Shown: positions 859 to 34,551 of the stretch, piece by piece | How the letters are laid out: the number at the start of each line of letters is the position of its first letter | Numbering within the stretch: the first letter of the stretch is position 1 | Origin: Iodidimonas nitroreducens | GTDB taxonomy: Bacteria; Pseudomonadota; Alphaproteobacteria; Sphingomonadales; Rhodothalassiaceae | Assembly (NCBI GenBank): GCA_000710935.1 | Contig: BAYV01000020.1 | Location: 1 to 34,551 of the forward strand | Length of the DNA: 34,551 nt | Direction: 5' to 3' | Notes under the pieces: model-generated | Databases searched by the model: none | Told to the model about the DNA's origin: nothing | What the model saw: only the letters and a program-made list of their open reading frames with translations | Program-made: the position numbers and the translations under genes

Positions 859-874
859 CGCCTGTGCCCTTTGG

Positions 875-1600
875 TTAGCGCCGCGTATAGGCGTCGCCGT
901 CGCCCATGAAGCGTGCGAAGCGGGCGCGGGCTTGCTCATGGGCGGCGAGGCTCCGCGCACGCTCCAGCGCGTCGGCCCGGGCCGAAGCGGCAAGAAGCGT
1001 CTGAAGCTGCATGGTCTGCTTGGCGGCAAGCGCCGTGAGCTGATTGCCCGCCTGCGCTACCTGAAGATTGCCGACGGCGCCCTGGCTTTCGGCGATCAGG
1101 CCGTCGAGCGTCACCGTGTCGGCGCGGACCTGCCCGACCACTTCCGCCTGAACCTCCAGACTGTGCTTGAAGCCTTCGCGCGCCAGCGACCAGGATTCTC
1201 GCGCATCGGCGATGATCTGCGGGGTCGAGACGGCGGCGGCATATTGTTCGGGGAAGAGCCGGCGATATTCGCTGTCGATAATCGAGACCTGATAGGCGAT
1301 GCCGCGAGCGATGATGATGAGATTGTCGAGACGGGCAAGCGAGGCCTGAAGATTGGGCGCGACGGAATTCGGCAGGCGCGTGAGGTTCTGCGCCTGATGG
1401 GCCAGCATCTGTGCCTCGTTGGCGAGTTGCTGAACCTGATTGTTGATCTGCTGGAGCGTGCGCGCCGCAGTCAGGATGTTTTCGGCATGGTTGGCCGGGT
1501 CGTAGACGATATCGCCGAGGCCGAAGATGGCGTGGGCGTTCTGGACCGGACCCAGGGTCAGGGCGATAGCGGCGACGGCCGCCAGGAGCTTACGTTTCAT
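875..1600 (-). CDS. trbJ: TrbJ, P-type conjugative transfer protein
   Basis: TrbJ is a periplasmic VirB5-like component of the trb mating apparatus, thought to act in pilus assembly or mating-pair contact. The 241-residue product begins MKRKLLAAVAAIALTLG and has a clear Sec signal peptide ending near AHA (residues 22-24), followed by IFGLGDIVYDPANHAEN, a typical TrbJ N-terminal segment. The rest is Gln/Ala-rich and predicted helical or coiled-coil, notably residues 45-80 and 180-230. The start overlaps the trbE 3' end by 11 bases, which implies translational coupling. Length and gene order fit the family; I see no truncation. Confidence 0.93.
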   Translation of the reverse strand: MKRKLLAAVAAIALTLGPVQNAHAIFGLGDIVYDPANHAENILTAARTLQQINNQVQQLANEAQMLAHQAQNLTRLPNSVAPNLQASLARLDNLIIIARGIAYQVSIIDSEYRRLFPEQYAAAVSTPQIIADARESWSLAREGFKHSLEVQAEVVGQVRADTVTLDGLIAESQGAVGNLQVAQAGNQLTALAAKQTMQLQTLLAASARADALERARSLAAHEQARARFARFMGDGDAYTRR

Positions 1601-4055: not shown

Positions 4056-4306
4056 GAGAGGTGACCCTTGTGGCGGGTATGGCGGATGAGGACCTGCATG
4101 AAGGCGGGGTCCTTGCGCGCGGCGTAGACGGCGGCCGCATGGCCGACGATCCAGACGGCAAGTCCCGCGAGCCAAAGCTGGAGGCCAAGCCCGAGCGCCG
4201 CGGCGAGCGTGCCGTTGACGATCGCAACATTGCGCGGCGCGCCGCCCATCAGGATCGGCTCGGTGAGCGCGCGGTGAAGCGGAATCTCGAAGCCTTCGAT
4301 GCTCAT
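4049..4306 (-). CDS. trbD: TrbD, small conjugal transfer membrane protein
   Basis: TrbD is the VirB3-like small inner-membrane protein that associates with the TrbE ATPase. The 85-residue product begins MSIEGFEIPLHRALTEPIL, a typical VirB3/TrbD N terminus (a short polar segment with 'LTxPxLxxGAPR'). Two hydrophobic helices follow at about residues 28-43 and 45-62. I set the start at 4306 because it gives an ATGA overlap with trbC and this conserved N terminus; the longer open frame up to 4567 only reads trbC in another frame. The stop overlaps the trbE start by 7 bases. Confidence 0.92.
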   Translation of the reverse strand: MSIEGFEIPLHRALTEPILMGGAPRNVAIVNGTLAAALGLGLQLWLAGLAVWIVGHAAAVYAARKDPAFMQVLIRHTRHKGHLSC

Positions 4307-4653
4307 GAAATCAGCGCTCCGCCGCCGAAGGAGAAGAAGGACAGGAAGAAGCTCGTCGCCGCGAAGGCGATGGAAAGCCCGAAAACGATCTGGATCAGCC
4401 GGCGGAAGCCGCCGCTCGATTCGCCGAAGGCAAGCGACAGGCCGGTGATGACGATGACGATGACGGCGATGATACGCGCGACCGGGCCTTCGATGGATTG
4501 AAGGATCTGGGTGAGCGGCGCCTCCCACGGCATGCCCGAACCGGCGGCGTGGGCCGCATCCGACCAAATGAGCGCCAGCCCCATAACAAGGCCGGCGAAG
4601 AGAGCCTGCCGGTACGGGAAACGGTCCAAAACATGAGGCGAAAATGGATTCAT
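4303..4653 (-). CDS. trbC: TrbC, conjugal pilin
   Basis: TrbC is the VirB2-like prepilin that is processed and assembled into the conjugative pilus. From the ATG at 4653 (MNPFSPHVLDRF) the product has 116 residues. A long signal sequence with a hydrophobic core at about residues 18-32 ends near HAAGSGMPWE, and two transmembrane helices (about 55-72 and 85-105) flank a short basic loop, the standard VirB2/TrbC plan. The frame extends 26 codons further upstream, into the end of trbB, but the chosen start leaves a 16-base gap after trbB. The stop overlaps trbD as ATGA. Confidence 0.9.
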   Translation of the reverse strand: MNPFSPHVLDRFPYRQALFAGLVMGLALIWSDAAHAAGSGMPWEAPLTQILQSIEGPVARIIAVIVIVITGLSLAFGESSGGFRRLIQIVFGLSIAFAATSFFLSFFSFGGGALIS

Positions 4654-4669
4654 ATGACGGTCTCCCTGG

Positions 4670-5650
4670 TCAGGCGGTTGGAACGAGGTGAACGGGCGTG
4701 AGCGGTGAAAGGCGGTAATCACCATCGGCATTGAGGCCTTCGAGCGCGGCGACCGTCTCGACGCGCCGGCCCGACCCGCGCCCTGTCAGGAAGACGACGA
4801 TGTCGATCGCCTCGGCGATCAGCCGGCGTGGCACGGTGACGACGGCTTCCTGAATGAGCTGTTCGAGCCGAAAGAGCCCGGCATGGGCCGAGTTGGCGTG
4901 AAGCGTCGTGATCCCGCCGGGATGGCCCGTATTCCAGGCCTTCAGCATGTCGAGGGCTTCGGCCCCGCGCACTTCGCCGACGATGATCCGGTCGGGGCGC
5001 AGGCGCATCGTCGAGCGCACGAGATCGGCGAGCGAGGCGACGCCGGGTCTTGTCCTGAGACTGACGCTGTCTTCCGCCGCGCAATGGAGCTCGCGCGTGT
5101 CCTCGATCAGGATCACCCGATCGCCGCCAGTCGCGACCTCGGCGAGGAGCGCGTTGACGAGCGTCGTCTTGCCCGAGCTCGTCCCGCCGACAACGACGAT
5201 GTTCCTGCGCGCCTCGACAGCTTCTCGCAGCGCCTTCGCCTGCAGCGGCGTCATGATCCGCGCTTCCACATAATCGGCGAGGCGATAGAGCACGCGGGCG
5301 GGCTTGCGGATGGCGAAGCACGGCGCCGGCACCACCGGCGGCAGGAGCCCTTCGAAGCGCTCGCCGCTCTCGGGCAGTTCGGCCGAGACGACCGGGCGTT
5401 CGCGATGGCATTCCTGGCCAATATGGCTCGCCACCAGCCGGATAATCCGCTCGGCCTCGGCGGCGCCGATCCGTGTCCCCGCGTCGATGCGCCCGTCGCC
5501 ATGGCGATCGATCCACAGCCGGCCGTCGGGATTGACCATCACTTCGATGACGGCGGGGTCGGCCAGCGCCGCCGCAATCGCCGGTCCCATGGCGGTGCGC
5601 AGCATGGTGCGCTGGCGATCGACCGTACTGGCATGAAAGCGGTCAGCCAT
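4670..5650 (-). CDS. trbB: TrbB, VirB11-type secretion ATPase
   Basis: TrbB is the hexameric VirB11/PulE-family ATPase that switches the secretion channel between pilus assembly and DNA transfer. The 326-residue protein carries Walker A GGTSSGKTT at about 155-163, an Asp box around LIEDTRELHC (181-190), Walker B RIIVGEVRG at about 221-229 and the His box TGHPGGITTLHANS at about 241-254, all intact. Its start overlaps the end of the upstream copG-like gene by 8 bases, and trbC follows after 16 bases. Full length for the family. Confidence 0.96.
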   Translation of the reverse strand: MADRFHASTVDRQRTMLRTAMGPAIAAALADPAVIEVMVNPDGRLWIDRHGDGRIDAGTRIGAAEAERIIRLVASHIGQECHRERPVVSAELPESGERFEGLLPPVVPAPCFAIRKPARVLYRLADYVEARIMTPLQAKALREAVEARRNIVVVGGTSSGKTTLVNALLAEVATGGDRVILIEDTRELHCAAEDSVSLRTRPGVASLADLVRSTMRLRPDRIIVGEVRGAEALDMLKAWNTGHPGGITTLHANSAHAGLFRLEQLIQEAVVTVPRRLIAEAIDIVVFLTGRGSGRRVETVAALEGLNADGDYRLSPLTPVHLVPTA

Positions 5651-12296: not shown

Positions 12297-14291
12297 CTAT
12301 GACACGGACGGCCCATTGCGCTGCCGACCAATGGTCCAGGAAATGCTGTCGCCGCGCATTAGGCCGCTTACCATCTTGCCGCGCTGACGTTCGAGGATTG
12401 GTCGCCATGGAACAAGCGTGAACTCTTTTGATTTTTCGATGACGGCGAACTTGCCGCTCGCAAGCCGGACCGGCTGGCGATAGACGCCGTCGATCCGATC
12501 CCCGTCCTGTGATTCCACGAAGGCCAACCCCGTCTCCTTGGCGAGCTTCTCGCCGGCAGCCGCCAGTTCCCGCCGGCGCAAGAACCGAAGCAAGTTTCGT
12601 TGGTAGCGAACTCGTTGGCCATTACTCTCCGCCAGCCCTTGCTCTATCAGATGCTCTTGACGCCGGCGCAGAGCTTGGGCGACTTCGGCTCCGAACCGCT
12701 CGCCGCGCAGCGCGCTCGGCTCCTTGGCGAGAAGCTGCCGGTCGAGCCAGGTCGCCCCGTCGGCGCCAACTTGAGCCTCAAGGGACAGAAACGACAGGGT
12801 CGTGATGCGGCTGGGATATCGTGCTTGCTTCTTGGCGAGCGCCTCAACCCGGCCTTCGAAGTTCTCGGGGATTTCCCATGACCCGTCCGGGAAGCGCCGA
12901 ACGACGTTCGCGCGCCGCAGCGCTTCGAGCCGACGGACATGAGCCTGAACGAAATCATCCGACGCACGCGGATCGACTGTGTGATGGGCGTCCGTCGTGT
13001 AGAGGCCGTCGTTCCTCCGGGCGATTTCGGCGATGGTTCGGTCGGACGGCTTCATTCCGGTTGCCGCCGGGCCAACCTCGACGACGGCGCCGAGCGGCAA
13101 ATCTTCCATCTCCTGTCGCGGATCGAGCGCGACGTAATGAACCCGCCCGTCGGCGGCGTCGATCATGACGTAGTGGCCGTCGTTTAGCTCGTCGTGGCGT
13201 CCGCGGTCGATGATCCGGCCGGTCACGGTCGGCGCGCGCGGGTCGGCAGGGTCGTAGATCGAGAACTCCGAAGCGCCAGCGTCGAGCCCCGCCTGCCGCA
13301 ATCCCCGGTGCAGAGTCTTGATGATGTCGCCGCGTTCGCCCGAGCGCCGGAGGGTCTCCTCCAGATTCGGCGAGAGCCGCCATCGGCCCGGCCCCGTCTC
13401 TTCAGCGAGGCCGCGCCACGCGAGCACGCGCAACCGGCCGACCTTCATGGCATGACGGAACCTTTCGTCGGCATGCTGCGGATTGGCGCGCGCATCGACA
13501 ATCCCGTCCACGGCGTCGCGGACCAGCGCGCGGTCGAGATCGGTGAAGCGGTCCTGCTCGACCTGGCGTGCCAGCTTTTGACCGAGCTCCCGAACGGTCT
13601 GCGGCCCGAGTTCCAGCGTCAGCAGTTCGCTCGCCCGCCGCCGCATGCCGTTGGCGATGTAGTCGCGGGCGATGACAAGGTCCTTGCCGAGCTCGTCCTT
13701 GCCCCGCAGCACTATATGGGTGTGCGGATGCTCGGTGTTGAAGTGATCGACGGCCACCCAGTCGAGCCGCGTGCCTAGATCTTTCTCCATCGCGCCCATC
13801 AGGTCGCGGACGAAGGGTTTGAGGTTAGCGAGTTCGGTCGCGTCCTCCGGTGAGACGATGAAACGGAACTGATGCCGGTCGCCGTCGCTGCGGTCGAGGA
13901 ACGCCTTGCCGTCCGCCTCGTCATGCGCCGCGTCGTAAAGCCGGCCAGGCTCGTGCTCCTTGGAGACTCCGTCGCGTTGGATATAGCGAAGGTGCGCGCG
14001 GGCGGCATCAATACCGCCGCTTCTGAGTTTGACGATCCGCGTCTTGATGACGACGCGCCGGTAGGACGGTCCGAAGCGGTGTCCGGCGCGACGATGTCGG
14101 AGCGCATCATTGCCACGTCCGATCCGATAGCCCGAATAGCGCCGTGATGCGGCCCCGGTTCCGAAACCGGACTTGCCTGCCTTCGAGACCTGGCGGAGCA
14201 CGCGGTTAAGATAGCCCTTGGTGCGCGCGCCGCCCAGGCTGCGAATGCGCCCGAGCTTCGGCTTGAAAATGTCGTCGATATCATCGGCCAT
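12297..14291 (-). CDS. VirD2/DUF3363-type conjugative relaxase
   Basis: This 664-residue protein is the relaxase that would nick oriT and pilot the strand through the mating channel. It has the MOB-type histidine triad region DHFNTEHPHTHIVLRG (His188, His190 and His192), which binds the metal, and a likely nucleophile Tyr103 in HLRYIQRDG; the C-terminal half is the DUF3363 region usual for this relaxase class in alphaproteobacterial elements. The N terminus is Arg/Gly-rich and basic (residues 1-80), as expected for DNA binding. It starts at 14291 after a 239-bp noncoding gap that may contain oriT. The gene is complete, so the mercury cassette next to its 3' end did not disrupt it. Confidence 0.92.
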   Translation of the reverse strand: MADDIDDIFKPKLGRIRSLGGARTKGYLNRVLRQVSKAGKSGFGTGAASRRYSGYRIGRGNDALRHRRAGHRFGPSYRRVVIKTRIVKLRSGGIDAARAHLRYIQRDGVSKEHEPGRLYDAAHDEADGKAFLDRSDGDRHQFRFIVSPEDATELANLKPFVRDLMGAMEKDLGTRLDWVAVDHFNTEHPHTHIVLRGKDELGKDLVIARDYIANGMRRRASELLTLELGPQTVRELGQKLARQVEQDRFTDLDRALVRDAVDGIVDARANPQHADERFRHAMKVGRLRVLAWRGLAEETGPGRWRLSPNLEETLRRSGERGDIIKTLHRGLRQAGLDAGASEFSIYDPADPRAPTVTGRIIDRGRHDELNDGHYVMIDAADGRVHYVALDPRQEMEDLPLGAVVEVGPAATGMKPSDRTIAEIARRNDGLYTTDAHHTVDPRASDDFVQAHVRRLEALRRANVVRRFPDGSWEIPENFEGRVEALAKKQARYPSRITTLSFLSLEAQVGADGATWLDRQLLAKEPSALRGERFGAEVAQALRRRQEHLIEQGLAESNGQRVRYQRNLLRFLRRRELAAAGEKLAKETGLAFVESQDGDRIDGVYRQPVRLASGKFAVIEKSKEFTLVPWRPILERQRGKMVSGLMRGDSISWTIGRQRNGPSVS

Positions 14292-23681: not shown

Positions 23682-24944
23682 ATGAAATGCCAAAAACTGG
23701 CGCTTTTCGGCGCTGTCATCGCGAGCCTTTGGCTTGCTGAGCCCGGCTTAGCGCAGGAGAGCGCTGCACCGGACATAGCGCTCAGGGAATTTGCCCTCAG
23801 CGTCCTGAGTGATCATCCGGCCCTGCGTCAAGCCCAGGCCGAATTGGATGCCGCGCGCGCCCAGGCACGCGGCCAAGCGCAACCGCTCTACAATCCCGAG
23901 ATTGAGTTTGAATACGAGGAAGCGCTCGACAATTCAAAGTCGGTCGGCCTATCGCAGACGCTCGATCTCAGCGGCAAACGGCGCGCGCGCGCCAACGTCG
24001 CCACGGCCGAGGTGGTCGCCGCGGAAGCGCGGTTCGCAATCACGCGCAAAACGATCCTCGCTAATCTCCTTATTGCGTTATCGGACTATCAGGTGCGCCG
24101 AGACGCAGTTCGCATAGCCGAGCAACGTGTCAGGCTGGACGAAGAGTTCCTTGCGCTTACCGAACGGCGTAATCGCGCGGGCGACCTGCCGCAATCGGAC
24201 CTGCTGACGGCCCGATTGACTCTGGCTGAAGCACGAGCTGCGGCGAGCACGGCAAGCATCGAGTTCTCGCAAGCGGAGGAACGCCTGATCGCCGTCGTTG
24301 GCGGCGTGATGCCTCCACCGCCGCCGCTTATCGGTTCACCTCCGCAAAAGCGCCCCTCAATCGATGTAGTGAATGTCGAGGCGCTGCCGGAACTTCAATC
24401 GGCGCAGGCTGATACAGAAGCAGCGCGGTCTTTCGTCGGCGTGGCGAAGCGGAATCGCATACCTGACCCGACCTTAGGCGTCAAAGTTGGTGAAGAGCGA
24501 AGCGCACTCGATCCATTTGGGCAAAGAGAGTCCTCGACACTATTCGGGGTACGGCTGTCCATTCCCCTGCCCATTCGCAACACGTACAGTGCCGAAGTCG
24601 ACGCCGCCAGGGCTGGTTCGATCGCGAGAGAGCAAAGCTACCGTGACTTGAGACGCAGGGTCGAAGCACGGCTTGCCGCAAGCCTTCGGCGCTACGAAAC
24701 GGCGCTCAGCGCTTGGCAAGCCTGGACCGCCCAAGGGGCTGCGCCGCTCGAAGAGCAACGCGCGCTCCTGCAGCGGTTGTGGGAAGCCGGCGAAATCGAC
24801 GCCGTCGATTACATCATTCAACTCAATCAAACCTTCGCAACGGAGAGCGCCGGTGTTGAGCTCAAGGGCCGTCTCTGGACCACATGGTTCGACTGGCTGG
24901 AAGCTTCCGCCGCGATCAGCGAATGGGTGGAGAATATCCAATGA
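23682..24944 (+). CDS. czcC: CzcC-like outer-membrane channel of a metal RND pump
   Basis: This 420-residue protein is a TolC-family outer-membrane factor of the CzcC type. It starts with a signal peptide (MKCQKLALFGAVIASLWLAE, cleavage near GLAQ) and shows the repeated OEP plan: FALSVLSDHPALRQAQAELDAARAQARG, the YNPEIEFEYEEALDNS strand, a long helix pair, then a second copy from about residue 235 (ELQSAQADTEAARSFVGVAKRNRIPDPTLGVKVGEE). The tail ends WFDWLEASAAISEWVENIQ. It overlaps czcB by 4 bases (ATGA). Full length for the family. Confidence 0.93.
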   Translation: MKCQKLALFGAVIASLWLAEPGLAQESAAPDIALREFALSVLSDHPALRQAQAELDAARAQARGQAQPLYNPEIEFEYEEALDNSKSVGLSQTLDLSGKRRARANVATAEVVAAEARFAITRKTILANLLIALSDYQVRRDAVRIAEQRVRLDEEFLALTERRNRAGDLPQSDLLTARLTLAEARAAASTASIEFSQAEERLIAVVGGVMPPPPPLIGSPPQKRPSIDVVNVEALPELQSAQADTEAARSFVGVAKRNRIPDPTLGVKVGEERSALDPFGQRESSTLFGVRLSIPLPIRNTYSAEVDAARAGSIAREQSYRDLRRRVEARLAASLRRYETALSAWQAWTAQGAAPLEEQRALLQRLWEAGEIDAVDYIIQLNQTFATESAGVELKGRLWTTWFDWLEASAAISEWVENIQ

Positions 24945-26116
24945 CCAGGAAAAATAAATTGTTCTTAGGTGGTGCAGCCGTCGTGGTGGCTTTCGTCGGC
25001 GCTGCTTTCGCGCTGATCAATCAGTCGCCGAATGCAAAGATTGAAGTCGCTGCTCCAGCGTCGCAAGAGACGGAGCACGGCGAGGAGCATGAAGAAGGCG
25101 GTGTCGTCGAAATGACCGCCGCCGATCGCAAGGCAAAGGGCGTCACCACGGCGCCCGTGGACTTGCGAGTCCTCACCGACGAAGCCGTTGTACCGGGTGA
25201 GGTAACGCTCGATCTATACCGATCAGCGCAGATTGCACCGAGAATATCCGCTCAAATTGTCGCCCGGCAGGCAAGGCTTGGGGACCATGTGAAGGCCGGA
25301 CAAGCGCTTGTCACCTTATCCAGCGTCGAGATGGCGGATGCGCAAGGAAACCTGATCGTTGCCACGCGCGAATGGAGCCGCGTGCGCGAGCTGGGACGTG
25401 AGGTCGTTTCCGAGCGGCGTTATGTGGAAGCGCAGGTGGCTGCTGAGCAGGCACGCGCCAAGCTCTTAGCTTTCGGCATGACACCGGAGCAGATAGAGGG
25501 ACTGGTCAAAAACGGTGACGCTTCTAAAGCGACTGGGATATTCGATCTTTTGGCTCCGCAGGACGGTACGGTCGTCAAGGACGATTTCGTTGTTGGCGAA
25601 GTCGTGGATGCGGGGCGCGTGCTGTTTCAGATCACGGATGAAAGCCGGGTGTGGGTGCAAGCCCAGCTTACGCCCGATCAGGTTGCTCATGCCGAGGTCG
25701 GCTCGTCTGTCCGTATTCTGATTGACAAGGACCACGCGGTCGGCGGCCGGATCGTTCAGGTCCACCACACGCTTGACGAGACGACACGCACCTTGCCGAT
25801 CCGTGTCGAGGTCGACAATGCGGGCGACGAGCTACATCCCGGCCAATATGTCAGCGTTGCGGTTGGAGTCGGTGATGGCAAACAAGCGCTCGCCGTACCG
25901 GAGGCGGCCGTCACGCTCATGGACGGAAATCCGACCGTCTTCAAAGTCGAAGGCGACGAACTTCACCCGACGGCGATTAAGACCGGCGTGACGCGCGGCG
26001 GCTGGGTTGAGGTCGCGGCCGGTCTGAGCACGGACGATGAAATCGCGACGACTGAGGTCTTTCTCCTCAAGTCGCTCATCCAGAAATCCCAGATGGGCGA
26101 AGGCCACGGGCACTAA
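24941..26116 (+). CDS. czcB: CzcB-like periplasmic adaptor of a metal RND pump
   Basis: From the ATG at 24941 (MTRKNKLFLGGAAVVV), overlapping the czcC stop as ATGA, the product is 391 residues. It has an N-terminal membrane anchor (about 6-24), a charged linker with HGEEHEEGG that could bind metal, a biotinyl/lipoyl half-motif (QIVARQARLGDHVKAGQALVTLS), a short helical hairpin, the beta-barrel region (VWVQAQLTPDQVAHAEVG) and a membrane-proximal domain ending with GEGHGH. CzcB proteins link the RND pump to the outer-membrane channel and may deliver periplasmic metal. A longer frame from 24884 lies inside czcC and is not needed. Confidence 0.93.
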   Translation: MTRKNKLFLGGAAVVVAFVGAAFALINQSPNAKIEVAAPASQETEHGEEHEEGGVVEMTAADRKAKGVTTAPVDLRVLTDEAVVPGEVTLDLYRSAQIAPRISAQIVARQARLGDHVKAGQALVTLSSVEMADAQGNLIVATREWSRVRELGREVVSERRYVEAQVAAEQARAKLLAFGMTPEQIEGLVKNGDASKATGIFDLLAPQDGTVVKDDFVVGEVVDAGRVLFQITDESRVWVQAQLTPDQVAHAEVGSSVRILIDKDHAVGGRIVQVHHTLDETTRTLPIRVEVDNAGDELHPGQYVSVAVGVGDGKQALAVPEAAVTLMDGNPTVFKVEGDELHPTAIKTGVTRGGWVEVAAGLSTDDEIATTEVFLLKSLIQKSQMGEGHGH

Positions 26117-26127
26117 GGAGATAGATC

Positions 26128-29100
26128 ATGTTGAACAAGCTCGTTGAACTTTCGCTTCAATACAAATTTCTTGTGATCATTGTCTTTCTGGTGATCGGCT
26201 TTCTCGGCTGGCGGGCGGTGACGACGGTTCCCATCGACGCCTTTCCGGATGTGACCCCGGTCCAGGTGAATATCTACACGGAGTCGCCCGGCCTCGCCGC
26301 AGAAGATGTCGAGCAACTTCTCACATTCCCCGTGGAATCGGCCATGGCCGGCCTGCCCGATGTCGACCAGATCCGCTCCGTCAGCCTGTTCGGCCTGTCT
26401 TATGTCTCGGTCTATTTTGAAGACGATGTGGACATTTACTTTGCGCGCCGCCTGGTTATGGAACGCTTGGCGGAAGTCCGCGACCGCATTCCCGAGGGCT
26501 ACGGCACGCCGGAAATGGGACCGAATTCCTCCGGACTCGGACAAGTCTTCTGGTACACGCTGGAGCGCGCCGACGAACAACTCGCGGGCGATATCACCGA
26601 CATGGACTTGCGCACACTGCAGGACTGGTCGATCCGTCTCATCTTGCGGACCGCGCCGGGGGTCGATGACGTGATGTCCTGGGGTGGCCAGGAACGCCAG
26701 TATCAGGTGCAGATCGACCCCCTGAAGCTCATTAAATACAAGCTCGGCTACCGCGATGTGATGGAGGCGATCGAGGCCAACAACCGTCAGGTCGGGGGGC
26801 AATATATCGATCAGGGACCAGAGCAGTTTTTGGTCCGGGGCCTCGGTCTCGTCGATGGTGAGCGCGATATCGGCACCATTATCCTCAAGGTCGAGGACGG
26901 CACGCCGGTCTATTTGCGGGACGTGGCGACGGTCGTACAGGCGCCATCGCTGCGCTTCGGCGCGGTGACGCGCGACGGCAAGGAGGTAGTCCTCGGCATG
27001 GCCTTATCGCGCATGGGCGAGAACGCCAAGAACGTGGTCGATGCTGTCAAGGAGAAGCTTTCCGTGGCCGAACAGGCCTTGCCTGACGGCGTCACGCTGA
27101 AGCCGATCTATGACCGCACAGAATTGGTGGAAAAGGCCGTCTCAACGGCGGAACGGGCTCTTATCGAAGGCTCGATCCTGGTCGCCATTGTGCTCTTCCT
27201 ATTCCTTGGCGAACTCCGCTCGGCGTTTGTGGTCATCGCCGCGTTGCCCCTCGCCATGCTGATCGCCTTTATCTTCATGGAGCAGGCAGGCCTGTCGTCA
27301 AATTTGATGTCGCTGGCGGGGCTCGCCATCGGTATCGGCATGATGGTCGACGGCGCCGTGGTCATGGTCGAGAATTCCTTCCGCATTATGGCGGAGCGCC
27401 GCTCGCACGGCGAGGAGGTCAACCGAACGGCAGCCGTGCTGGCGGCGGCGCGCGAAGTCGCCAATCCGATAGCATTCGCAATCCTCATCATCATCGTCGT
27501 GTTCCTACCGCTTTTCAGCCTTGAAGGCCTCGAAGGCAAGATGTTCAAGCCGATGGCCTTCAACATCAGCTTCGCTATGGCGGGATCACTGCTCCTGACG
27601 CTGACGATTATACCGGTTCTGGCGGCGCTCATCCTTAAGCCCAAGGAAGAGCGCGATACCATGCTCGTGCGCTGGATCAAGCGCGGCTATCTGCCCCTGC
27701 TCGCCTGGTCGCTTGCAAACAAGCGAAAGGTCGTGATGGCCGCCGGTGCCTTGCTCCTGTTCAGCCTCGCGCTTTTTCCCTTTCTTGGGAAAGAGTTCAT
27801 GCCGCAGTTGCAGGAAGGCTCAATCATGTGGCGGGTAACGTCGATTCCGTCCACCTCGCTCGACCAGTCGATCAAGGTCTCGAACGACATCTCGGCGGCA
27901 TTGTCGGAGTTCCCGGAAGTTGACACCACACTCGCCATGATCGGCCGGGCCGAAAAGGGCGAGACTGCCGACGTCAACTACATGGAGATCTACACCGCCT
28001 TGAAACCCGAGGGAGAATGGAAGTCGGGCCGCTCGATTGAGGAACTGGCGGACGCCATGCGTGAAAAACTGGAAGAGGTCGTCCCCACCGCCGTCATCGC
28101 TTTCACCCAGCCGATCCAGATGCGGGTGGAAGAACTGATCTCAGGGGTGCGCGCCACCTTGGCGGCGAAGCTCTACGGCGAAGACCTGGCCGAACTCGAC
28201 AGCCTGAGCCAAGAGATCAAGAACGCGATCGCCTCGGTCCCCGGTGTGGCCGATCTATCGCTCGAAGCTAATCTCGGCAAGCCGCAAGTGCGGATTCAGG
28301 TAGACCGGGACCAGCTTGCCCGTTATGGCCTCAACGCTGATGATGTTCTGACTATCGTCCGCACCGGAATCGGCAACGAGCCAGTTTCGACACTTATCGA
28401 CGGCGTCAAACGATTCGACATCACGGCCCGGCTTCAGGACTCCTCGAAAACCTCCATCGAGGCGATCAAGGCGATCCCACTGCGTACGGCCGATGGGGCG
28501 ATTATTCCGTTGAGCCGTGTCGCGGACGTGTCAGTGGCGGAAGGCTATTCCTTCGTTCGGCGCGAGCAATTGCAGCGTTATGCGGTAATCCAGATGGATG
28601 TCCGCGGACGCGACATTGACGGCTTTGTTCAGGATGCAAACCGGGCGATTAAGCAAAATGTGGAATTGCCGCCCGGCTATTGGATTGAATGGGGCGGTGC
28701 TTTCGAGAACCAGCAGCGCGCGCTCACGCGCCTTTCGATCATCGTACCGCTGACGATCTTTTTCATCTTCGTCCTTCTGTACACCGCGTTCAACTCGATC
28801 CGCCACGCAACGCTGATCATCGCCAATGTGCCATTCGCCACTATCGGCGGACTGATTTCGCTCGCCATCACCGGGCAATATCTGTCTGTGCCGTCGGCGA
28901 TCGGCTTCATTGCGGTCTTCGGTGTCGCCATGCTCAACGGCATCGTCCTCGTCGAATTCATCAATGGATTGCGCGAAAAGGGACTGAGCGTTGGGGAAGC
29001 CGTACGACGGGGAACGGAACTCAGACTCCGCCCGGTGCTGATGACGGCAAGCGTGGCAATCCTCGGCCTGATCCCCATGCTGCTGTCGTCAGGTGTCGGT

Positions 29101-29259
29101 GCCGAAACCCAGCGGCCGCTTGCCACCGTCGTCGTCGGCGGGCTGATCACTTCGACGCTGCTGACCCTTGTCCTTCTCCCCGTCATCTATGAGTGGATGG
29201 AGACGCGCGTGGCACGACCCGTGGAAACCGCCCGACAGCTCGAATCGCAGGAGGTCTAA
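26128..29259 (+). CDS. czcA: CzcA-like heavy-metal RND efflux pump
   Basis: CzcA is the proton-driven inner-membrane pump of the tripartite complex. The 1043-residue protein is full length, with membrane helix 1 at about 13-30, two large periplasmic loops and the second helix bundle from about 340. Helix 4 reads GIGMMVDGAVVMVEN: Asp408 and Glu415 match the numbering of Cupriavidus CzcA exactly, but the position of Asp402 is Gly. That departs from the DFG-type signature of Zn/Co/Cd pumps and from the AIG/DAA form of Cu/Ag pumps, so the substrate is uncertain although the neighbours suggest divalent metals. AAGGAG ahead of the ATG is a strong ribosome site. It sits between czcB and the PII-like gene. 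Confidence 0.95.
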   Translation: MLNKLVELSLQYKFLVIIVFLVIGFLGWRAVTTVPIDAFPDVTPVQVNIYTESPGLAAEDVEQLLTFPVESAMAGLPDVDQIRSVSLFGLSYVSVYFEDDVDIYFARRLVMERLAEVRDRIPEGYGTPEMGPNSSGLGQVFWYTLERADEQLAGDITDMDLRTLQDWSIRLILRTAPGVDDVMSWGGQERQYQVQIDPLKLIKYKLGYRDVMEAIEANNRQVGGQYIDQGPEQFLVRGLGLVDGERDIGTIILKVEDGTPVYLRDVATVVQAPSLRFGAVTRDGKEVVLGMALSRMGENAKNVVDAVKEKLSVAEQALPDGVTLKPIYDRTELVEKAVSTAERALIEGSILVAIVLFLFLGELRSAFVVIAALPLAMLIAFIFMEQAGLSSNLMSLAGLAIGIGMMVDGAVVMVENSFRIMAERRSHGEEVNRTAAVLAAAREVANPIAFAILIIIVVFLPLFSLEGLEGKMFKPMAFNISFAMAGSLLLTLTIIPVLAALILKPKEERDTMLVRWIKRGYLPLLAWSLANKRKVVMAAGALLLFSLALFPFLGKEFMPQLQEGSIMWRVTSIPSTSLDQSIKVSNDISAALSEFPEVDTTLAMIGRAEKGETADVNYMEIYTALKPEGEWKSGRSIEELADAMREKLEEVVPTAVIAFTQPIQMRVEELISGVRATLAAKLYGEDLAELDSLSQEIKNAIASVPGVADLSLEANLGKPQVRIQVDRDQLARYGLNADDVLTIVRTGIGNEPVSTLIDGVKRFDITARLQDSSKTSIEAIKAIPLRTADGAIIPLSRVADVSVAEGYSFVRREQLQRYAVIQMDVRGRDIDGFVQDANRAIKQNVELPPGYWIEWGGAFENQQRALTRLSIIVPLTIFFIFVLLYTAFNSIRHATLIIANVPFATIGGLISLAITGQYLSVPSAIGFIAVFGVAMLNGIVLVEFINGLREKGLSVGEAVRRGTELRLRPVLMTASVAILGLIPMLLSSGVGAETQRPLATVVVGGLITSTLLTLVLLPVIYEWMETRVARPVETARQLESQEV

Positions 29260-29260
29260 T

Positions 29261-29587
29261 ATGAAAGAAGTTAAAGCGTTTATTCACCGCAACCGGATCG
29301 CTGACGTTGTCCATGCCCTTAAGACAGCAGGGTTCCGGAACATTTCCGTGATCGACGTTAAGGGTATGCTGAAAGCCCTCGATTCTCAGGAACAGCAATA
29401 TTCCATTGAGATTGGCGAAAAAGTCATCACAGAGGTGAAGCTGGAACTCGTCTGCGAGGCGGACAAGGTCGACCAGGCCTTGGCGTTGATTCGCGACAAT
29501 GGGCGCACCGGACAACCCAATGCCGGCTGGGTTTATGTCAGCGAAATCGAAAGCGCATATCCGATCGACGACGGAAACGCGTCCTGA
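29261..29587 (+). CDS. PII-like (GlnB-fold) protein of metal-efflux operons
   Basis: This 108-residue protein begins MKEVKAFIHRNRIADVVHAL, the first strand and helix of the PII fold, and continues with FRNISVIDVKGMLKAL, a T-loop-like stretch (DSQEQQYSIEIGEKVITE), then VKLELVCEADKVDQALALI and GWVYVSEIESAYPI. It matches the 'PII-NG' type known beside CzcA-family pumps rather than the nitrogen-control GlnB/GlnK, and lacks a typical uridylylated Tyr in the T-loop. It may bind a nucleotide or metal and modulate the pump or the ATPase. AGGAGG precedes the ATG, which lies one base after the czcA stop, and its stop overlaps the ATPase start (TGATG). Confidence 0.85.
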   Translation: MKEVKAFIHRNRIADVVHALKTAGFRNISVIDVKGMLKALDSQEQQYSIEIGEKVITEVKLELVCEADKVDQALALIRDNGRTGQPNAGWVYVSEIESAYPIDDGNAS

Positions 29588-31791
29588 TGGCGCCCGCATC
29601 TGAAGCGTCCGGCCTGACCTTCAAGGTGCGAGGGCTCGATTGCGCCGAGGAAGTGGCGGTGCTCCGGCGCGAGCTTGGCCCGCTTGTCGGCGGTGCGGAC
29701 AACCTCGCCTTCGACGTCTTGAACGGCCGCATGACGGTGCTCGCCGAAGCGCCGCCGGCCTCCGCCGATGAGATCCGGGAAGCCGTCCGCCGGACGGGCA
29801 TGACCGCGGTCGAATGGCGCGCCGGCGCGAAAAGCGCGGGTGACGAGAGCGACAGGCGCCGACGCCAACACATCTGGTTCACAAGTCTCAGTGGCCTATT
29901 TGTCGTTGCAGGCTTTGTCATCCACATTTGGCTCGCGGGCGGCTTCACCGAAGCCATTCGGCTTCTCGCCGGTCACGACGGAGAAGCCGTGCCTCTGCCC
30001 GAGATGGCGGCCTATGCGCTCGCCATCGGCTTCGGCATTCGCTTCGTCATCGTCAAGGCCTGGTACGCGGCGCTCGGCCTGCGGCCCGACATGAACCTTT
30101 TGATGACGGTCGCCATCGCCGGCGCCATCGTCATCGGCGAATGGTTCGAGGCAGCGACGGTCGCCTTCCTGTTCTCCCTCTCGCTCACCCTCGAAAGCTG
30201 GAGCGTCGGCCGAGCGCGCCGTGCCATTGCCGCTCTTGTCGATCTTTCTCCGCCCATGGTGCGTCTCCTGCGCGCAGACGGATCGGAAGCGGACGTGCCT
30301 GTGGCCGAGGTCAATCCAGGCGACCGCTTCATCGTTCCGGCTGGTGAGCGCATCGGGCTGGACGGGCGGGTCGCTGCCGGCGAAAGCGCTGTCAATCAAG
30401 CGCCCGTCACCGGCGAGAGCGTGCCGGTTGAAAAGGCGGAGGGCGCGGAGGTTTACGCCGGCACCATCAACGGCGACGGAACGCTCACGGTGGAGGCCAC
30501 CAAGGCGGCCGGGGACACGATGCTGGCGCGCATCATCCGCATGGTCGAGGAAGCCCATGCGCGGCGCGCTCCTTCGGAACAATGGGTGGAGCGCTTTGCT
30601 CGTGTCTATACGCCCGCGGTCATGGCTCTCGCGTTGCTTGTATTCCTGGCGCCGCCGCTGGCGCTCGGCGGAGCGTGGGACGACTGGTTCTATCGCGCCC
30701 TAGTCCTGCTCGTGATCGCCTGCCCGTGTGCCCTGGTGATCTCGACGCCCGTCTCCATCGTCGCGTCACTGGCGTCGTCGGCGCGGGCCGGGGTGCTGGT
30801 CAAGGGCGGCGCCTATATCGAGCTTCCAGCGCGCCTGAAGGCGATCGCCATGGACAAGACCGGAACGATCACGCGGGCCGAGCCCGTCGTGGCTGAGGTC
30901 ATCCCGCTCGGAAACCACACCGAGGCCGAGCTCGTTGCGCGCGCCGCCGCGCTTGAGGCGCGCTCCACGCATCCTCTTGCGCGGGCAATTCTGGAATATG
31001 CGGATCAACGGGGAATCACACCTGCGCCGGCGGGCGACGTGCGGGTTCTCAAGGGAAAGGGGCTGGCCGGAACCTTCGACGGCGAACGGTTCTGGCTCGG
31101 TTCCCACCGCTACGTCGTCGAGCGCGGTCAGGATACGCCCGAGACCGCAAGACAGGCGGAAGCGCTGGAAGCGGGCGGCAAGACCGTCATCGCCGTCGGC
31201 AACCCGCGTCATGTCTGCGGTCTCATCGCGGTCGCGGATACGGTCCGGCCGGAGGCGCGGGAAATCATGCAACAACTGCACGCCACCGGCATTGGGCATG
31301 TGGTCATGCTGACCGGCGACAACCGCGTCACGGCCAATGCCATCGCCCGCGATCTCGGCATCGACGAGGTACACGCCGAGCTATTGCCGGACGACAAGGT
31401 CAAGAAAATCGAGGAGCTTGTCGCGCGCTATGGTACGGTCGCCATGGTCGGCGACGGTGTCAACGACGCGCCGGCGCTGGCGCGTGCCAACCTCGGCATC
31501 GCCATGGGCGCGATCGGCTCGGACGCAGCGATCGAGACCGCCGATATCGCGCTCATGACCGATGACATCTCGAAACTGCCTTGGCTCGTCCGTCACTCCA
31601 AACGGACGCTCGCGATCATTCGCCAGAACATCGTCTTCTCACTCGGGGTCAAAGCGGTTTTCATGGGGCTCACCTTTGCCGGCTTCGCGACTTTGTGGGG
31701 CGCGATCGCCGCCGATATAGGCGCTTCCTTGTTGGTGATCGCCAATGCGCTGCGGCTATTGCGCCTGCGTGAAAGTCCGGAGAATTCATGA
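29587..31791 (+). CDS. Zn/Cd/Pb-type P1B ATPase (ZntA/CadA family)
   Basis: This 734-residue P-type ATPase exports divalent soft metals from cytosol to periplasm. It has an N-terminal HMA-like domain in which GLDCAEEVAVL (about 16-26) replaces the usual CxxC with Cys plus acidic residues, the DCxxE variant seen in Zn-linked pumps. Membrane helices follow, then TGES in the actuator domain, the CPC motif (379-381), the phosphorylation site DKTGT (Asp423), GDGVNDAPAL (about 622-631) and a final helix with DIGASLLVIANALRLLRL, characteristic of the P1B-2 (Zn/Cd/Pb) class. It follows the PII-like gene with a one-base overlap. All catalytic residues are intact. Confidence 0.95.
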   Translation: MAPASEASGLTFKVRGLDCAEEVAVLRRELGPLVGGADNLAFDVLNGRMTVLAEAPPASADEIREAVRRTGMTAVEWRAGAKSAGDESDRRRRQHIWFTSLSGLFVVAGFVIHIWLAGGFTEAIRLLAGHDGEAVPLPEMAAYALAIGFGIRFVIVKAWYAALGLRPDMNLLMTVAIAGAIVIGEWFEAATVAFLFSLSLTLESWSVGRARRAIAALVDLSPPMVRLLRADGSEADVPVAEVNPGDRFIVPAGERIGLDGRVAAGESAVNQAPVTGESVPVEKAEGAEVYAGTINGDGTLTVEATKAAGDTMLARIIRMVEEAHARRAPSEQWVERFARVYTPAVMALALLVFLAPPLALGGAWDDWFYRALVLLVIACPCALVISTPVSIVASLASSARAGVLVKGGAYIELPARLKAIAMDKTGTITRAEPVVAEVIPLGNHTEAELVARAAALEARSTHPLARAILEYADQRGITPAPAGDVRVLKGKGLAGTFDGERFWLGSHRYVVERGQDTPETARQAEALEAGGKTVIAVGNPRHVCGLIAVADTVRPEAREIMQQLHATGIGHVVMLTGDNRVTANAIARDLGIDEVHAELLPDDKVKKIEELVARYGTVAMVGDGVNDAPALARANLGIAMGAIGSDAAIETADIALMTDDISKLPWLVRHSKRTLAIIRQNIVFSLGVKAVFMGLTFAGFATLWGAIAADIGASLLVIANALRLLRLRESPENS

Positions 31792-31792
31792 A

Positions 31793-32350
31793 ATGAACCG
31801 CTCAACGGATTCGTCCAGTTCGAAATCATTCGGTTTACTTTTGAACCCGGAACACTGCGTCGTTGTTCTCATCGACTACCTCGCCAATTTTTCCGCTGGC
31901 CTGCCGGCCGAAGAAGCGCAGCGTTTTACCGAAGTGGTTGGTCTGCTTTTGAAAACAGCAGAAGAGCTTAAAATTCCGACAATCGTCACCGCACGATCAA
32001 ATCGTGCGCGGAATGATAAACTGATAAACGCATCAGACAGCCATGGCTCGGGGGAAGATGCGATTTGGCGCGAAACAATAAATCCGTGGGCGAATGACTC
32101 TTTTCGGGACCATATTCGATCTTGTCAACGCAACCGCTTAATCCTTTGCGGCATGTGGTCAGATGATTCAGTCACCTTCGCCGCACTCAGCGCTTTGGAG
32201 GAAGGTTTCGACGTATACCTTGTAGTGGACGCGACGAGAGGGACTTCATTGGATATCCATAACACCGCAATGGCGCGGATGACGCAGATGGGAACTATTC
32301 CGATCAGCACACGTCAATTGATTTTGGAGTGGAAGGGAAGCGTCGAATAG
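31793..32350 (+). CDS. Isochorismatase-fold protein lacking the catalytic cysteine
   Basis: From the ATG at 31793 (MNRSTDSSSSKSFG), preceded by GGAG and one base after the ATPase stop, the product is 185 residues. VVVLIDYLANFSAG with Asp28 matches the first catalytic residue of cysteine hydrolases of the isochorismatase/YcaC family, and the Rossmann-like core ILCGMWSDDSVTFAALSALEEGFDVYLVVDA is clear. Where the nucleophilic Cys normally stands (…DVCV…) the protein has Ser126. Unless the serine works, it is not a standard hydrolase. The DNA is noticeably less GC-rich than the metal genes around it, suggesting separate origin. Its link to metal resistance is only positional. Confidence 0.8.
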   Translation: MNRSTDSSSSKSFGLLLNPEHCVVVLIDYLANFSAGLPAEEAQRFTEVVGLLLKTAEELKIPTIVTARSNRARNDKLINASDSHGSGEDAIWRETINPWANDSFRDHIRSCQRNRLILCGMWSDDSVTFAALSALEEGFDVYLVVDATRGTSLDIHNTAMARMTQMGTIPISTRQLILEWKGSVE

Positions 32351-32610
32351 TGATTGCAGATACCACTGACGGCGGAAGGAAGGCGGCCGAATGGGCGCCG
32401 ATCAAGTCACGCTATCGTGTCCAGTCGGCCTCGACCTACCACGCCCGTGCGTGTGGCCCTCAAAGTTGCATCCCCCGGACACCACTTTTCCAAGAGCCGC
32501 ATGGTCGATCCAAGCGGAGCAAAGACGGGCCAGCCGATGGTTGCTTGGGATGGATAACGTTGGGAAGCCCCGTATTGGGACTTATGCATCGTGCAGGCAT
32601 GATCCTGCAG

Positions 32611-32802
32611 ATGGAAAACAGCAAATTCACTCCAAATCCTAATGAGACGACTGCGCAAGAACGGAAACTTGCACATCCGATATCGCGCGAAATCGAGAAC
32701 AGACTCCAAAGTATTGTGAAAGCACTTGCGCGCCAGGCGGCAAGACAGCACTACGCAGAAGCTTGTCTGAGGGCGAAAAAGGATTCAGAATCGAATCATT
32801 GA
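32611..32802 (+). CDS. Small charged protein upstream of the recombinase
   Basis: The ATG at 32611 gives 63 residues (MENSKFTPNPNETTAQER), mostly helical and rich in charged residues: REIENRLQSIVKALARQAARQHYAEACLRAKKD. The open frame extends back to 32329, but that part is irregular and has no ribosome site. I recall short proteins with an 'ALARQAAR' helix directly upstream of serine recombinases in alphaproteobacteria; no function is assigned, and a recombination directionality factor is one possibility by position. It ends 17 bases before the recombinase. The 260 bases before it (32351-32610) show nothing recognisable. Confidence 0.55.
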   Translation: MENSKFTPNPNETTAQERKLAHPISREIENRLQSIVKALARQAARQHYAEACLRAKKDSESNH

Positions 32803-32819
32803 ATCCGAGGACATGCCGC

Positions 32820-34551
32820 ATGCCGACCGCAGCCCTTTACGCTCGTTACTCCTCCGACAACCAGCGTGACGCCTCGATAGAGGACCAACTGAGAATCTGT
32901 CGCGAGCGCGCGGAGCGCGAAAGGTGGCGCATCGTCGACAGCTACAGCGATCGTTCGATTTCAGGCGCGAGCCTGATCCGGCCAGGTATCCAGGCGCTTC
33001 TGCAGGACGCGCAGGCCCGGCGCTTCGATATTGTGCTCGCCGAATCGCTCGACCGCATCTCCCGCGATCAGGAGGATATCGCCGGCGTCTACAAACGCCT
33101 CACCTTCGCCGGGGTGCGCATGGTGACGCTCTCCGAAGGCGACATCAGTGAGCTCCATATCGGCCTCAAGGGCACGATGGGGGCGCTGTATCTCAAGGAC
33201 CTCGCCGACAAGACGCGCAGAGGCTTGCGCGGCCGGGTCGAAGACGGCAAGTCGGGAGGCGGGAATTCTTACGGCTATCGCGTCGTGCGCCGGACCGGCC
33301 CCGACGGTGAGCCGGAACGCGGCGAGCGTGAGATCGATCCGGCGGAAGCTGCGATAGTGCGCCGCATCTTCGCCGACTATGCAGCCGGCAAGTCGCCGCG
33401 CCAAATCGCCCATGAGCTGAATGCCGAAGGCATTTCCGGTCCCCGCGGCAAGGGATGGGGACCGAGCACGCTATTCGGCAATGTGAAGCGCGCCAACGGC
33501 GTGCTCAACAACGAGCTTTACATAGGCAGGCTCGTCTGGAACCGCCAGCGCTTTCTCAAGGATCCGGATACGGGCAAGCGTGTCGCGCGCCCAAACCCTA
33601 AAGAGGAGTGGATCATCCAGGAGGTCCCGGAGTTGCGCATCATCTACGATGAACTTTGGGCCAAGGTGAAGGCGCGCCAAACCGCGATCCGCGAGCGCTA
33701 TGTCAAGAATGGAGGCAACGGCCTTACCGCAACGCGCCGCACGCGCTACCTCTTCTCCGGCCTCATCAAATGCGCCGAGTGCGGGGGCGGCTATTCCATT
33801 GTCTATCGAGGTCAGTTCGGCTGCTCGACGGTGAAGAACAAGGGGACGTGCTCGAACCATACCCGGATCACGCGTGAGGAGCTGGAGACCCGCGTCCTCA
33901 ACGCCCTGCGCAATCATCTGATGAAGCCGGAACGCTTCCACGCGTTCTGTGAAGAGTATACCCGTGAGATCAACCGCCTGCGGATGGAAGCGTCTACAGG
34001 AATCGCCGCCAAAGGGGCGGAACTGAAGAAGGTTGAAGGGGGAATCCGCAAGATCATCGACGCGATCAAGGAAGGCTATCGTACGCCAGGTATGAAGGAA
34101 GAGCTGTTTGAACTTGAAGATCGTAAGGCGCGTCTGACGGAGGAACTCGCCCAGGCGGAAGAGCCGCCAACGCTACTGCACCCCAACATGGCGCATGAGT
34201 ACCGCAAGCGCATCGATGGTCTGTTTACGGCACTCGAAGACGAGCGTACTCGGCTTGAAGCCAGCGACGATATCCGGGCGCTGGTCGGCCGCATTATCGT
34301 TTCGGCCGGCGAGGATGGTAAAGCGGACCTATGGCTGGAGGGGGACCTTGCCGGCATTCTGACGCTGGCGGCCGGCAAAAAAACACCCGCCCATCCGGAG
34401 GACGAGCGGGTGCTGACATCGGTGGTTGCGGGGACATACAGCCGTCGATATCGGCAAAACGAAAAAAGCGGCCCGGATGGGGCCGCTATTTCCGCAGCAC
34501 CTGGGGTGCTGACATCGATGGTTGCGGGGGTAGGATTTGAACCTACGACCT
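32820..34551 (+). CDS. Large serine recombinase (integrase), frame open to window end
   Basis: This is the likely integrase of the element. From the ATG at 32820, with GAGG 9 bases upstream, the frame stays open for 577 codons and runs off the window. The resolvase domain starts ALYARYSSDNQRDASIEDQL, with Ser11 as catalytic residue; ESLDRISRDQEDIAGVYKRL and GALYLKDLADKTRRGLRGRV follow. Next come the recombinase domain (about 150-290), a zinc ribbon starting CAEC (318-321) with GCSTVKNKGTCSN, and a coiled-coil (about 370-470). The last codons read antisense through two tRNA-end repeats (VLTSVVAG, then VLTSMVAGVGFEPTT) and into tRNA-fMet. The real stop must lie in flanking DNA beyond the window. 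Confidence 0.9.
   Translation, partial: MPTAALYARYSSDNQRDASIEDQLRICRERAERERWRIVDSYSDRSISGASLIRPGIQALLQDAQARRFDIVLAESLDRISRDQEDIAGVYKRLTFAGVRMVTLSEGDISELHIGLKGTMGALYLKDLADKTRRGLRGRVEDGKSGGGNSYGYRVVRRTGPDGEPERGEREIDPAEAAIVRRIFADYAAGKSPRQIAHELNAEGISGPRGKGWGPSTLFGNVKRANGVLNNELYIGRLVWNRQRFLKDPDTGKRVARPNPKEEWIIQEVPELRIIYDELWAKVKARQTAIRERYVKNGGNGLTATRRTRYLFSGLIKCAECGGGYSIVYRGQFGCSTVKNKGTCSNHTRITREELETRVLNALRNHLMKPERFHAFCEEYTREINRLRMEASTGIAAKGAELKKVEGGIRKIIDAIKEGYRTPGMKEELFELEDRKARLTEELAQAEEPPTLLHPNMAHEYRKRIDGLFTALEDERTRLEASDDIRALVGRIIVSAGEDGKADLWLEGDLAGILTLAAGKKTPAHPEDERVLTSVVAGTYSRRYRQNEKSGPDGAAISAAPGVLTSMVAGVGFEPTT
34377..34412 (-). terminator. Terminator-like hairpin inside the recombinase 3' end
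   Basis: Read on the minus strand, CACCCGC (34406-34412) and GCGGGTG (34384-34390) form a 7-bp stem with a 15-base loop, followed directly by seven Ts (34377-34383). It looks like an intrinsic terminator for a transcript coming from tRNA-fMet, yet lies within the recombinase frame on the other strand (the AAAAAAA run encodes the Lys-Lys before TPAHPED). It partly overlaps the first tRNA-end repeat. Confidence 0.6.
34408..34433. repeat. Direct repeat copy 1: inner tRNA-end/attachment-site scar
   Basis: This 26-base unit, GGGTGCTGACATCGG followed by TGGTTGCGGGG, differs by one base (G at 34422) from the copy at 34504-34529, 96 bases away. Its last 11 bases are the antisense of the tRNA-fMet 3' end (CCCCGCAACCA). 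It has no tRNA body behind it, so it looks like a leftover attachment-site end inside the element. Confidence 0.7.
34462..34487 (-). terminator. Intrinsic terminator of tRNA-fMet
   Basis: On the minus strand AGCGGCCC (34480-34487), a 5-base loop and GGGCCGCT (34467-34474) form an 8-bp stem, followed by a T-run complementary to the A-run at 34462-34467. It lies 31 bases beyond the tRNA 3' end, the usual place for a tRNA terminator. It sits inside the recombinase frame on the opposite strand, between the two direct repeats. Confidence 0.75.
34504..34529. repeat. Direct repeat copy 2: probable attachment site at the tRNA-fMet 3' end
   Basis: This copy spans the junction between the tRNA 3' end (from 34519) and the sequence just downstream of it. 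It matches copy 1 at 34408-34433 in 25 of 26 positions. A perfect inverted repeat CAGCACC-TGG-GGTGCTG (34495-34511) abuts it and could be a recombinase-binding arm. It is the best candidate for the right attachment site; the crossover point inside it is unknown. Confidence 0.65.
34519..34551 (-). tRNA. Initiator tRNA-fMet, 3' part only
   Basis: The minus strand reads AGGTCGTAGGTTCAAATCC followed by TACCCCCGCAACCA, which is the variable loop, T-arm (GTAGG-TTCAAAT-CCTAC) and acceptor end with encoded CCA of an alphaproteobacterial initiator tRNA. The T-stem pairs perfectly. The anticodon and D arms lie beyond the window, so the identity rests on the 3' third. The gene is probably intact because the integration event kept or restored its 3' end. 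Confidence 0.85.

Follow-up and report, generated by a model that had tools for sequence, protein, structure and literature searches.

The window analysed here, a stretch of 34,551 nucleotides, is one entire contig (G000:C89) of the 108-contig, 3.08 Mb draft genome of Iodidimonas nitroreducens. At its right end a large serine recombinase frame meets a tRNA gene on the opposite strand, and the question is where the protein ends and whether that end depends on the integration state of the element encoding it. The original prediction held that the frame enters tRNA-fMet antisense without a stop in the window, that host DNA supplies the C terminus when the element is integrated, and that, once the element is excised, its opposite end provides the closure of the frame.

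The recombinase frame and the tRNA-fMet gene

32820 to 34551, plus strand: large serine recombinase frame, open at the contig end (Pfam Resolvase, Recombinase, Zn_ribbon_recom)
34380 to 34503, plus strand: tail-coding spacer between the folded domains and the crossover; disordered according to AlphaFold2, with signs of protein-level selection on family spacers
34408 to 34433, plus strand: repeat copy 1, an attP-like site of arm and core TGGTTGCGGGG, then arm ACATACAGCCGTCGATATCGGCA (arms compared by eye)
34504 to 34529, plus strand: repeat copy 2, the attR P half-site and crossover core (TGCTGACATCGATGGTTGC-GGGG), codons VLTSMVAG; 18/22 inverted-repeat matches with the attL arm
34519 to 34551, minus strand: tRNA-fMet 3' end, 33 nt; the remaining part lies in contig C2:34-77

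The frame begins with an ATG at 32820 and meets no stop up to the end of the window. It qualifies as a large serine recombinase, a class with a known catalytic serine motif, by three Pfam domains (Resolvase N-terminal, E 2.7e-25; Recombinase, E 4.9e-23; zinc ribbon, E 5.8e-12) and by a C-terminal coiled coil, modelled as long helices at residues 370-417 and 425-445. The first 33 nt of contig C2 are those of window 34519-34551, and C2:1-77, which lies downstream of the 5S and 23S rRNA genes, is a minus-strand tRNA-Met(CAT). Read across this overlap, the frame gains three further codons (FRL) and then stops at a TGA in the antisense anticodon loop of tRNA-fMet. The integrated recombinase is 580 aa long and ends ...VLTSMVAG-VGFEPTTFRL; its C-terminal reading is VAGVGFEPTTFRL, also given as ...VLTSMVAGVGFEPTTFRL, with the stop directly after. 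The expected antisense run into the tRNA and the host-supplied C terminus are both borne out by this extension, in which the 33-nt join of window and C2 is inferred from a draft genome.

A stop or frameshift before 34519 would have undone this reading. The IMG/VR contig L117, compared with window 31745-34551, differs only at 34531 and 34545, both within the tRNA core, so an error before 34519 is unlikely. L117 is a separate metagenome contig, and the independence of its sample from the genome is not established.

At L117:2819-12635, where the recombinase DNA is that of the window, a tyrosine-integrase prophage (Pfam Phage_integrase, GpA terminase, D5_N) separates the recombinase from the rest of the tRNA. 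There the recombinase is followed by ~45 nt of tRNA 3' half and, since this remnant holds the same stop, the frame is not opened by the prophage and still ends GAGFEPATFRL. Another element can thus share the tRNA and leave the frame intact. A partial tRNA likewise lies behind the recombinase in L008 and L012. The ~45-nt partial tRNAs of L008, L012 and L117 had suggested that a stop in the tRNA core keeps the protein identical in all states. This holds with a neighbouring element, as in L117; it was rejected for the attP of the serine element, which has a core of ~11 nt and gives a different tail.

In the AlphaFold2 model, residues 525-576 have a pLDDT below 50 (mean pLDDT 69.2, pTM 0.46). The C-terminal end is thus predicted to be disordered, in keeping with an accessible tail, in a model of middling overall quality.

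Attachment sites and the excised form

The two 26-nt repeats, 34408-34433 and 34504-34529, are identical at 25/26 positions and lie 96 nt, or 32 codons, apart in frame. The view that they are tRNA-derived survives in part: their last 11 nt (TGGTTGCGGGG) match the tRNA, whereas the other 15 nt form an attachment-site arm. Judged by this division, the repeats are attachment-site arms more than tRNA copies. Tandem in-frame units of 51, 54, 60, 66, 84 or 96 nt occur at window 34408-34529 and in L008, L037, L047, L065 and L086, each combining a further half-site with an arm that resembles attP and, in many cases, a terminator in antisense orientation. Whether they arose as tiny captured att cassettes or by tandem duplication is unexplained.

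Of the seven genomic occurrences of the 11-nt core, two fall within the window, a third opens C2 and four are elsewhere. At C75:13168-13178, on the minus strand, it continues directly into GCATGCAACCATCGATATCAGCA, and this attL arm is an inverted repeat of the window arm TGCTGACATCGATGGTTGC at 18/22 positions. By eye, the palindrome centres on a GG common to the tRNA, so the locus satisfies a criterion for large serine recombinases, namely attP arms in inverted repeat whose central dinucleotide also occurs in attB. Candidate attL sites L388, L391 and L392 were rejected for lack of an inverted-repeat arm by eye.

When the frame is joined over the crossover, the excised form reads ...VLTSMVAG-ACNHRYQQGLFQAAA and then stops, giving a protein of 585 aa whose full reading is ...VLTSMVAGACNHRYQQGLFQAAA. 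The last 10 residues of the integrated form are exchanged for the last 15 of the excised form, and a stop is present in both states. The attL on C75 therefore confirms that the other element end closes the excised frame. The further idea that integration state may alter protein length fares less well, 580 against 585 aa being hardly any change. The swap of C-terminal tails is established at the level of sequence, as far as a draft genome allows.

On its host side, attL is bordered by a hairpin, behind which comes CCACGGAAGCAATACGGAAGCA. The sister species G002 has an empty site in which tRNA-fMet is followed by its own hairpin and then by the attL-side flank, with 82% identity over 60 nt; such a match came from one of the four relatives searched. 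The flank motif is not unique, because CACGGAAGCAATACGGAA stands behind both the tRNA-fMet and the tRNA-Lys terminators of G002 (L401:80-150, L402:1500-1580), where it resembles a repeated sequence. Integration and excision by the recombinase are inferred activities; the products seen are attR, attL and the empty site in a relative.

The element between these ends carries conjugation genes:

1 to 5650, minus strand: trbL (1-1029), trbE-like gene (1590-4175) and trbB-like ATPase gene (4670-5650)
12297 to 14291, minus strand: relaxase (DUF3363, weak MobA/VirD2-like match)

C75 carries trbG (CagX) and trbI, which fit onto the trbB, trbE and trbL genes of the window, and the trb operon is taken to continue from one contig into the other. 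The orientation of trb genes on both contigs is that needed for the cores to be direct repeats; the join itself rests on gene order only and is inferred. With it, the features of an integrative and conjugative element (ICE) are complete: recombinase, type IV secretion genes, relaxase and two direct-repeat ends. The cargo at 23682-31791 resembles metal-efflux genes, with OEP, HlyD_D23 and ACR_tran matches and an E1-E2 ATPase that matches HMA weakly.

Recurrence and constraint among relatives

Relatives were drawn from the order of the window (60 genomes, then 396), from genome contigs (best 80 of 575 matches), from IMG/VR (best 80 of 142, best 80 of 169 and best 80 of 139) and from three phage records. 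The 378 loci gave 358 with a match and 280 distinct by exact identity only, of which 265 are closed frames, 14 run off a contig end and 1 is broken; these rows are not phylogenetically independent. Among the matches listed, an antisense tRNA T-loop motif stands at the frame end in 203 of the 265 closed homologue frames and is absent from 62, so that the recurrence of GVGFEPTT-type tails in other recombinases, proposed at the outset, proves to be wide. Chance matches to the motif are possible, so the 203 may include a few ends that are no tRNA. The tRNA is read in more than a chance manner, because 193 of the 203, again among the matches listed, use one common frame (another frame in 10). Tails of these 193 are of the GFEP..F[RG]L type behind VAG (91), the G[FL]EPPT.GL type (90) or other types (12). 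Copies of the core lie in one phase in 243/255 cases, and repeated cores are spaced by multiples of three in 25/26, L060 being the exception. The single tRNA frame could also reflect common descent together with a fixed half-site frame.

Plasmid records agree, with tRNA tails in 12 of the 16 fetched (304 had a match); in L419 and L421 the annotated gene end is the stop in tRNA sequence. At 46 family sites the attP arms show a mean of 11.7/22 inverted-repeat matches, against 5.8 when shuffled, and 23 of the 46 reach at least 13. Near-identical bodies occur in both states (L047/L048, 98.2%; L089/L077, 96.6%). Some attP-type loci have mismatched P and P' arms (e.g. L043, L047 and L083) and may be tandem or hybrid sites rather than excised circles. 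The arrangement does not extend to every one of these relatives, since phage Mae-JY29 (L226, ending -QRRRA) and L210-L214 end without a core. Judging by these frames, the overlap of the recombinase 3' end with attP and a tRNA tail is a design of the family.

More distant serine recombinases (L017, L018 and L019; 24-30% identity) read into tRNAs in another frame (..DSNL), with tRNA-Arg in L018 and tRNA-Thr in L019, and the habit may be older than the family around the window recombinase. In a Komagataeibacter plasmid (L427:2537-2984), an annotated tRNA(fMet)-specific endonuclease VapC and its antitoxin lie directly behind the recombinase; toxin-antitoxin genes also precede it in L426, L427 and L431.

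Two more features lie within the tail-coding region, both facing the tRNA/rRNA transcript:

34382 to 34414, minus strand: intrinsic-terminator-like hairpin 1, inside the recombinase frame (-26.6 kcal/mol, z -2.97)
34467 to 34487, minus strand: intrinsic-terminator-like hairpin 2 (-33.5 kcal/mol, z -6.04)

Such antisense hairpins occur in 83 of 184 family spacers among the matches listed, against an average of 11 in shuffles. Spacer lengths were measured from a variable tblastn match end, which makes the count of 38 different lengths inexact. The native tRNA hairpin is left at attL. The spacer DNA thus has three uses: it codes for the protein tail, it can terminate the tRNA transcript of the opposite strand, and it adjoins an attP half.

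Among 169 codon differences between spacers, 106 are synonymous, where 22% would be expected without constraint (p 1.5e-29; 29 disjoint relative pairs); in the preceding domain the figure is 1048/1471. Pairs had equal spacer length, 70-98.5% domain identity and a spacer difference below 35%, and the 15 nt nearest the core were excluded. By this measure the spacer is under protein-level selection. The P' arms point the same way to differing degrees. Synonymous differences number 11/13 in the NLPELRCAV type (19% expected), where TAA and TGA stops are also exchanged, and 43/89 in the -LAA type (16% expected), or 27/42 against 20% without the outlier L089. In the RHSL type they number 49/155 (13% expected), a modest excess. 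Pairs within each P' arm group are not independent. Since the P' arm sits at the far end when the element is integrated, its codon constraint suggests that it is translated while the element is free. Translation of the spacer and of both tails is supported by these selection signatures.

Among the 62 tails without tRNA sequence, 48 contain the core and count as attP-type. An Ala-Ala end is found in 15 of the 48, compared with 85 of 1420 nearby frames of at least 600 nt (6%; p 7e-8); it is absent from the other two frames (0/96) and is encoded by 11 different codon pairs. The 14 tails without a VA core were left out of this count, L251, which ends AA, among them. The p value is post hoc, as the Ala-Ala idea arose from part of those tails. 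Grouping similar tails leaves 11 of 42 groups with Ala-Ala ends (p 2.7e-5); among 65 tails there are 20 by count and 21 by reading, the search pattern having lost L381 (-SVAA). Far-end arms make a fairer test, and 5 of 14 end in Ala-Ala, the -QAAA of the window element included (p 0.001), yet these sites were chosen from 21 pattern matches after their context had been viewed, and L415 sits behind a recombinase-like frame. The seven dropped were L398, L403, L404, L408 and L409 (inside other long frames), L412 (a duplicate of L353) and L413 (a stop immediately after VAG). Three plasmid tails have a core but lack tRNA sequence, and L418 alone among them ends in Ala-Ala. Two phage records end GVIAA (Mae-JY30) and GRFVA (RR1-A), and the provirus relatives L189 and L190 end EGFEPPTQGL.

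Roughly two in three attP-type tails have an end other than Ala-Ala (e.g. -HSLHIAV, -ELRCAV, -LKVKI), so that a degron, if general, must have other forms. Ala-Val, Ala-Ile, Lys-Ile and the like also occur as excised-type endings, and it is possible but not certain that these act as signals. The signals that ClpX recognizes fall into classes. In the window element the excised tail ends -QAAA and the integrated tail -TFRL; the former fits an ssrA-like tag, in the absence of any degradation assay. That the excised tail is a degron is an inference with moderate statistical support, and degradation itself is inferred. A change of protein stability between the two states is plausible and without experiment.

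Tail exchange, alternative readings and known systems

The best explanation as a whole, which the evidence makes probable and leaves well short of secure, is that the window is most of a ~47.7 kb ICE (34.5 kb here, 13.2 kb on C75) in the 3' end of tRNA-fMet behind an rRNA operon, that its attP overlaps the recombinase 3' end, and that integration replaces a degron-like tail by a tRNA-coded one. Ends, frames, empty site and recurrence are read from sequence; translation is argued from selection; the degron is inferred. The crossover would fall at the central GG, at the end of the codons GTT GCG GGG (Val-Ala-Gly), with the P arm encoding the residues ahead of it and the P' arm the tail behind. 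Integration would exchange the P' arm for the tRNA, so that the tail ACNHRYQQGLFQAAA becomes VGFEPTTFRL with a TGA from the anticodon loop, and excision would restore the first tail, with a predicted circular-form junction of ...GTTGCGGGGGCATGCAACC... With the native terminator left at the far end, the spacer hairpins could take over termination of the tRNA/rRNA transcript. The excised tail, which has an Ala-Ala end in this element and in roughly one relative in three, would act as a ClpXP-type degron and make the recombinase of the free element short-lived, and integration would remove it. The wider claim, that a large family of alphaproteobacterial serine recombinases senses its own integration state in this way, short-lived when free and given a stable end by a backwards-read initiator-tRNA gene when integrated, is tentative, with doubt somewhat outweighing belief.

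The alternative that survives best, although unlikely, is that attP lies at the gene end for compactness and that a disordered, functionless tail is swapped without consequence. The predicted disorder, the wide differences in tail length and sequence, and the two thirds of attP-type tails without Ala-Ala all suit such a neutral overlap, which is at odds with protein-level selection on the spacer, synonymous differences in the P' arm above expectation and an Ala-Ala enrichment restricted to the frame. Distinctly improbable is a positive role for the tails, for example in contacts with a directionality factor or the synaptic complex, the attP form favouring integration and the tRNA form excision. 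The direction of serine integrases is set by protein-protein contacts, and a basic motif such as RYRHSL, with Ile or Val as the last residue, is common to one group of attP-type tails, but the tails are diverse (42 groups among 65) and this role would not predict Ala-Ala ends. That the true protein ends earlier, with GVGFEPTT as backwards-tRNA junk of the kind by which antisense tRNA frames create spurious database proteins, or that a window stopping at a contig end hides an assembly error, can hardly be entertained when no stop lies upstream, L117 is identical as far as the core, 193/203 relatives share the frame, spacer codons appear selected and the complete plasmid records concur.

If replacement of a degron-like tail is correct, the loss of a tag at integration, a trick of phage repressors, would apply to recombinases too, and not in phages alone but also in conjugative elements. 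Antisense tRNA tails, easily taken for annotation junk, would be selected protein ends in many recombinases, and the opposite strand of a host tRNA gene would double as the last piece of a mobile-element enzyme. The exchange would offer a simple handle on serine integrases that avoid or favour re-integration, and expressing such a recombinase would require a choice between two C-termini. No description of a recombinase tail swap was found in the open-licence literature, a scope that excludes most subscription journals.

The catalytic domain is related to those of classical large serine integrases, the N-terminal domains of TP901-1 and TnpX having been matched. Classical members have palindromic attP arms around a central dinucleotide; as a rule, their attP is separate from the coding frame and their attB is something other than a tRNA end. 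The window element shares the related catalytic domain and palindromic arms and differs in having attP in frame and attB at a tRNA end.

Integration-dependent immunity of mycobacteriophage BPs and its relatives was reportedly described by Broussard et al. in 2013. In that system, as far as the accessible parts of the sources state, the free form carries a C-terminal -LAA or similar ssrA-like tag that integration removes (PMC4557955, PMC9262239). According to the same partial sources, both systems have attP in the 3' end of a gene, attB overlapping a tRNA gene and a C-terminus altered by integration. The gene there is a repressor, which becomes shorter upon integration, and the recombinase is of the tyrosine family. 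In the ICE described here it is the serine recombinase whose own gene is altered, and the antisense strand of the tRNA provides its new tail. Degradation is reported, in the portions available, for the BPs system and only inferred here. The window element meets the definition in that attP lies inside a gene and integration changes its C-terminus, and fails it in that the gene is a serine recombinase and no immunity repressor, with no tyrosine integrase found by Pfam. The tail swap works like integration-dependent immunity but is no member of it, because the gene does not encode a repressor and a tyrosine-family recombinase is not involved.

Another comparable system is phiPam-6, or vB_PamS_Pami6, of Paracoccus aminophilus, described in the excerpts consulted as an inducible serine-recombinase phage that integrates at tRNA-Met (PMC3925955, PMC6536676) and as the sole serine-recombinase Paracoccus phage with a predicted integration site (PMC6536676). 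Its 17-bp direct repeat is given there as CCCTCCTCCGCTACCAT; the reverse complement, ATGGTAGCGGAGGAGGG, encodes the MVAEEG core of a sister clade in the survey. The available parts of these papers contain nothing on the recombinase tail (PMC3925955, PMC6536676). IntG of the tripartite rhizobial ICEs was considered as a namesake and ruled out, being a tyrosine recombinase according to the part of the source available (PMC5882170). Tyrosine-integrase elements at tRNA genes, such as the L117 neighbour and, as far as that partial source goes, ICESym (PMC5882170), resemble the window element in restoring the tRNA 3' end from an element copy. They differ in recombinase family and in their longer tRNA copy (~45 nt in L117, 17 bp in ICESym), against a core of 11-12 nt here.
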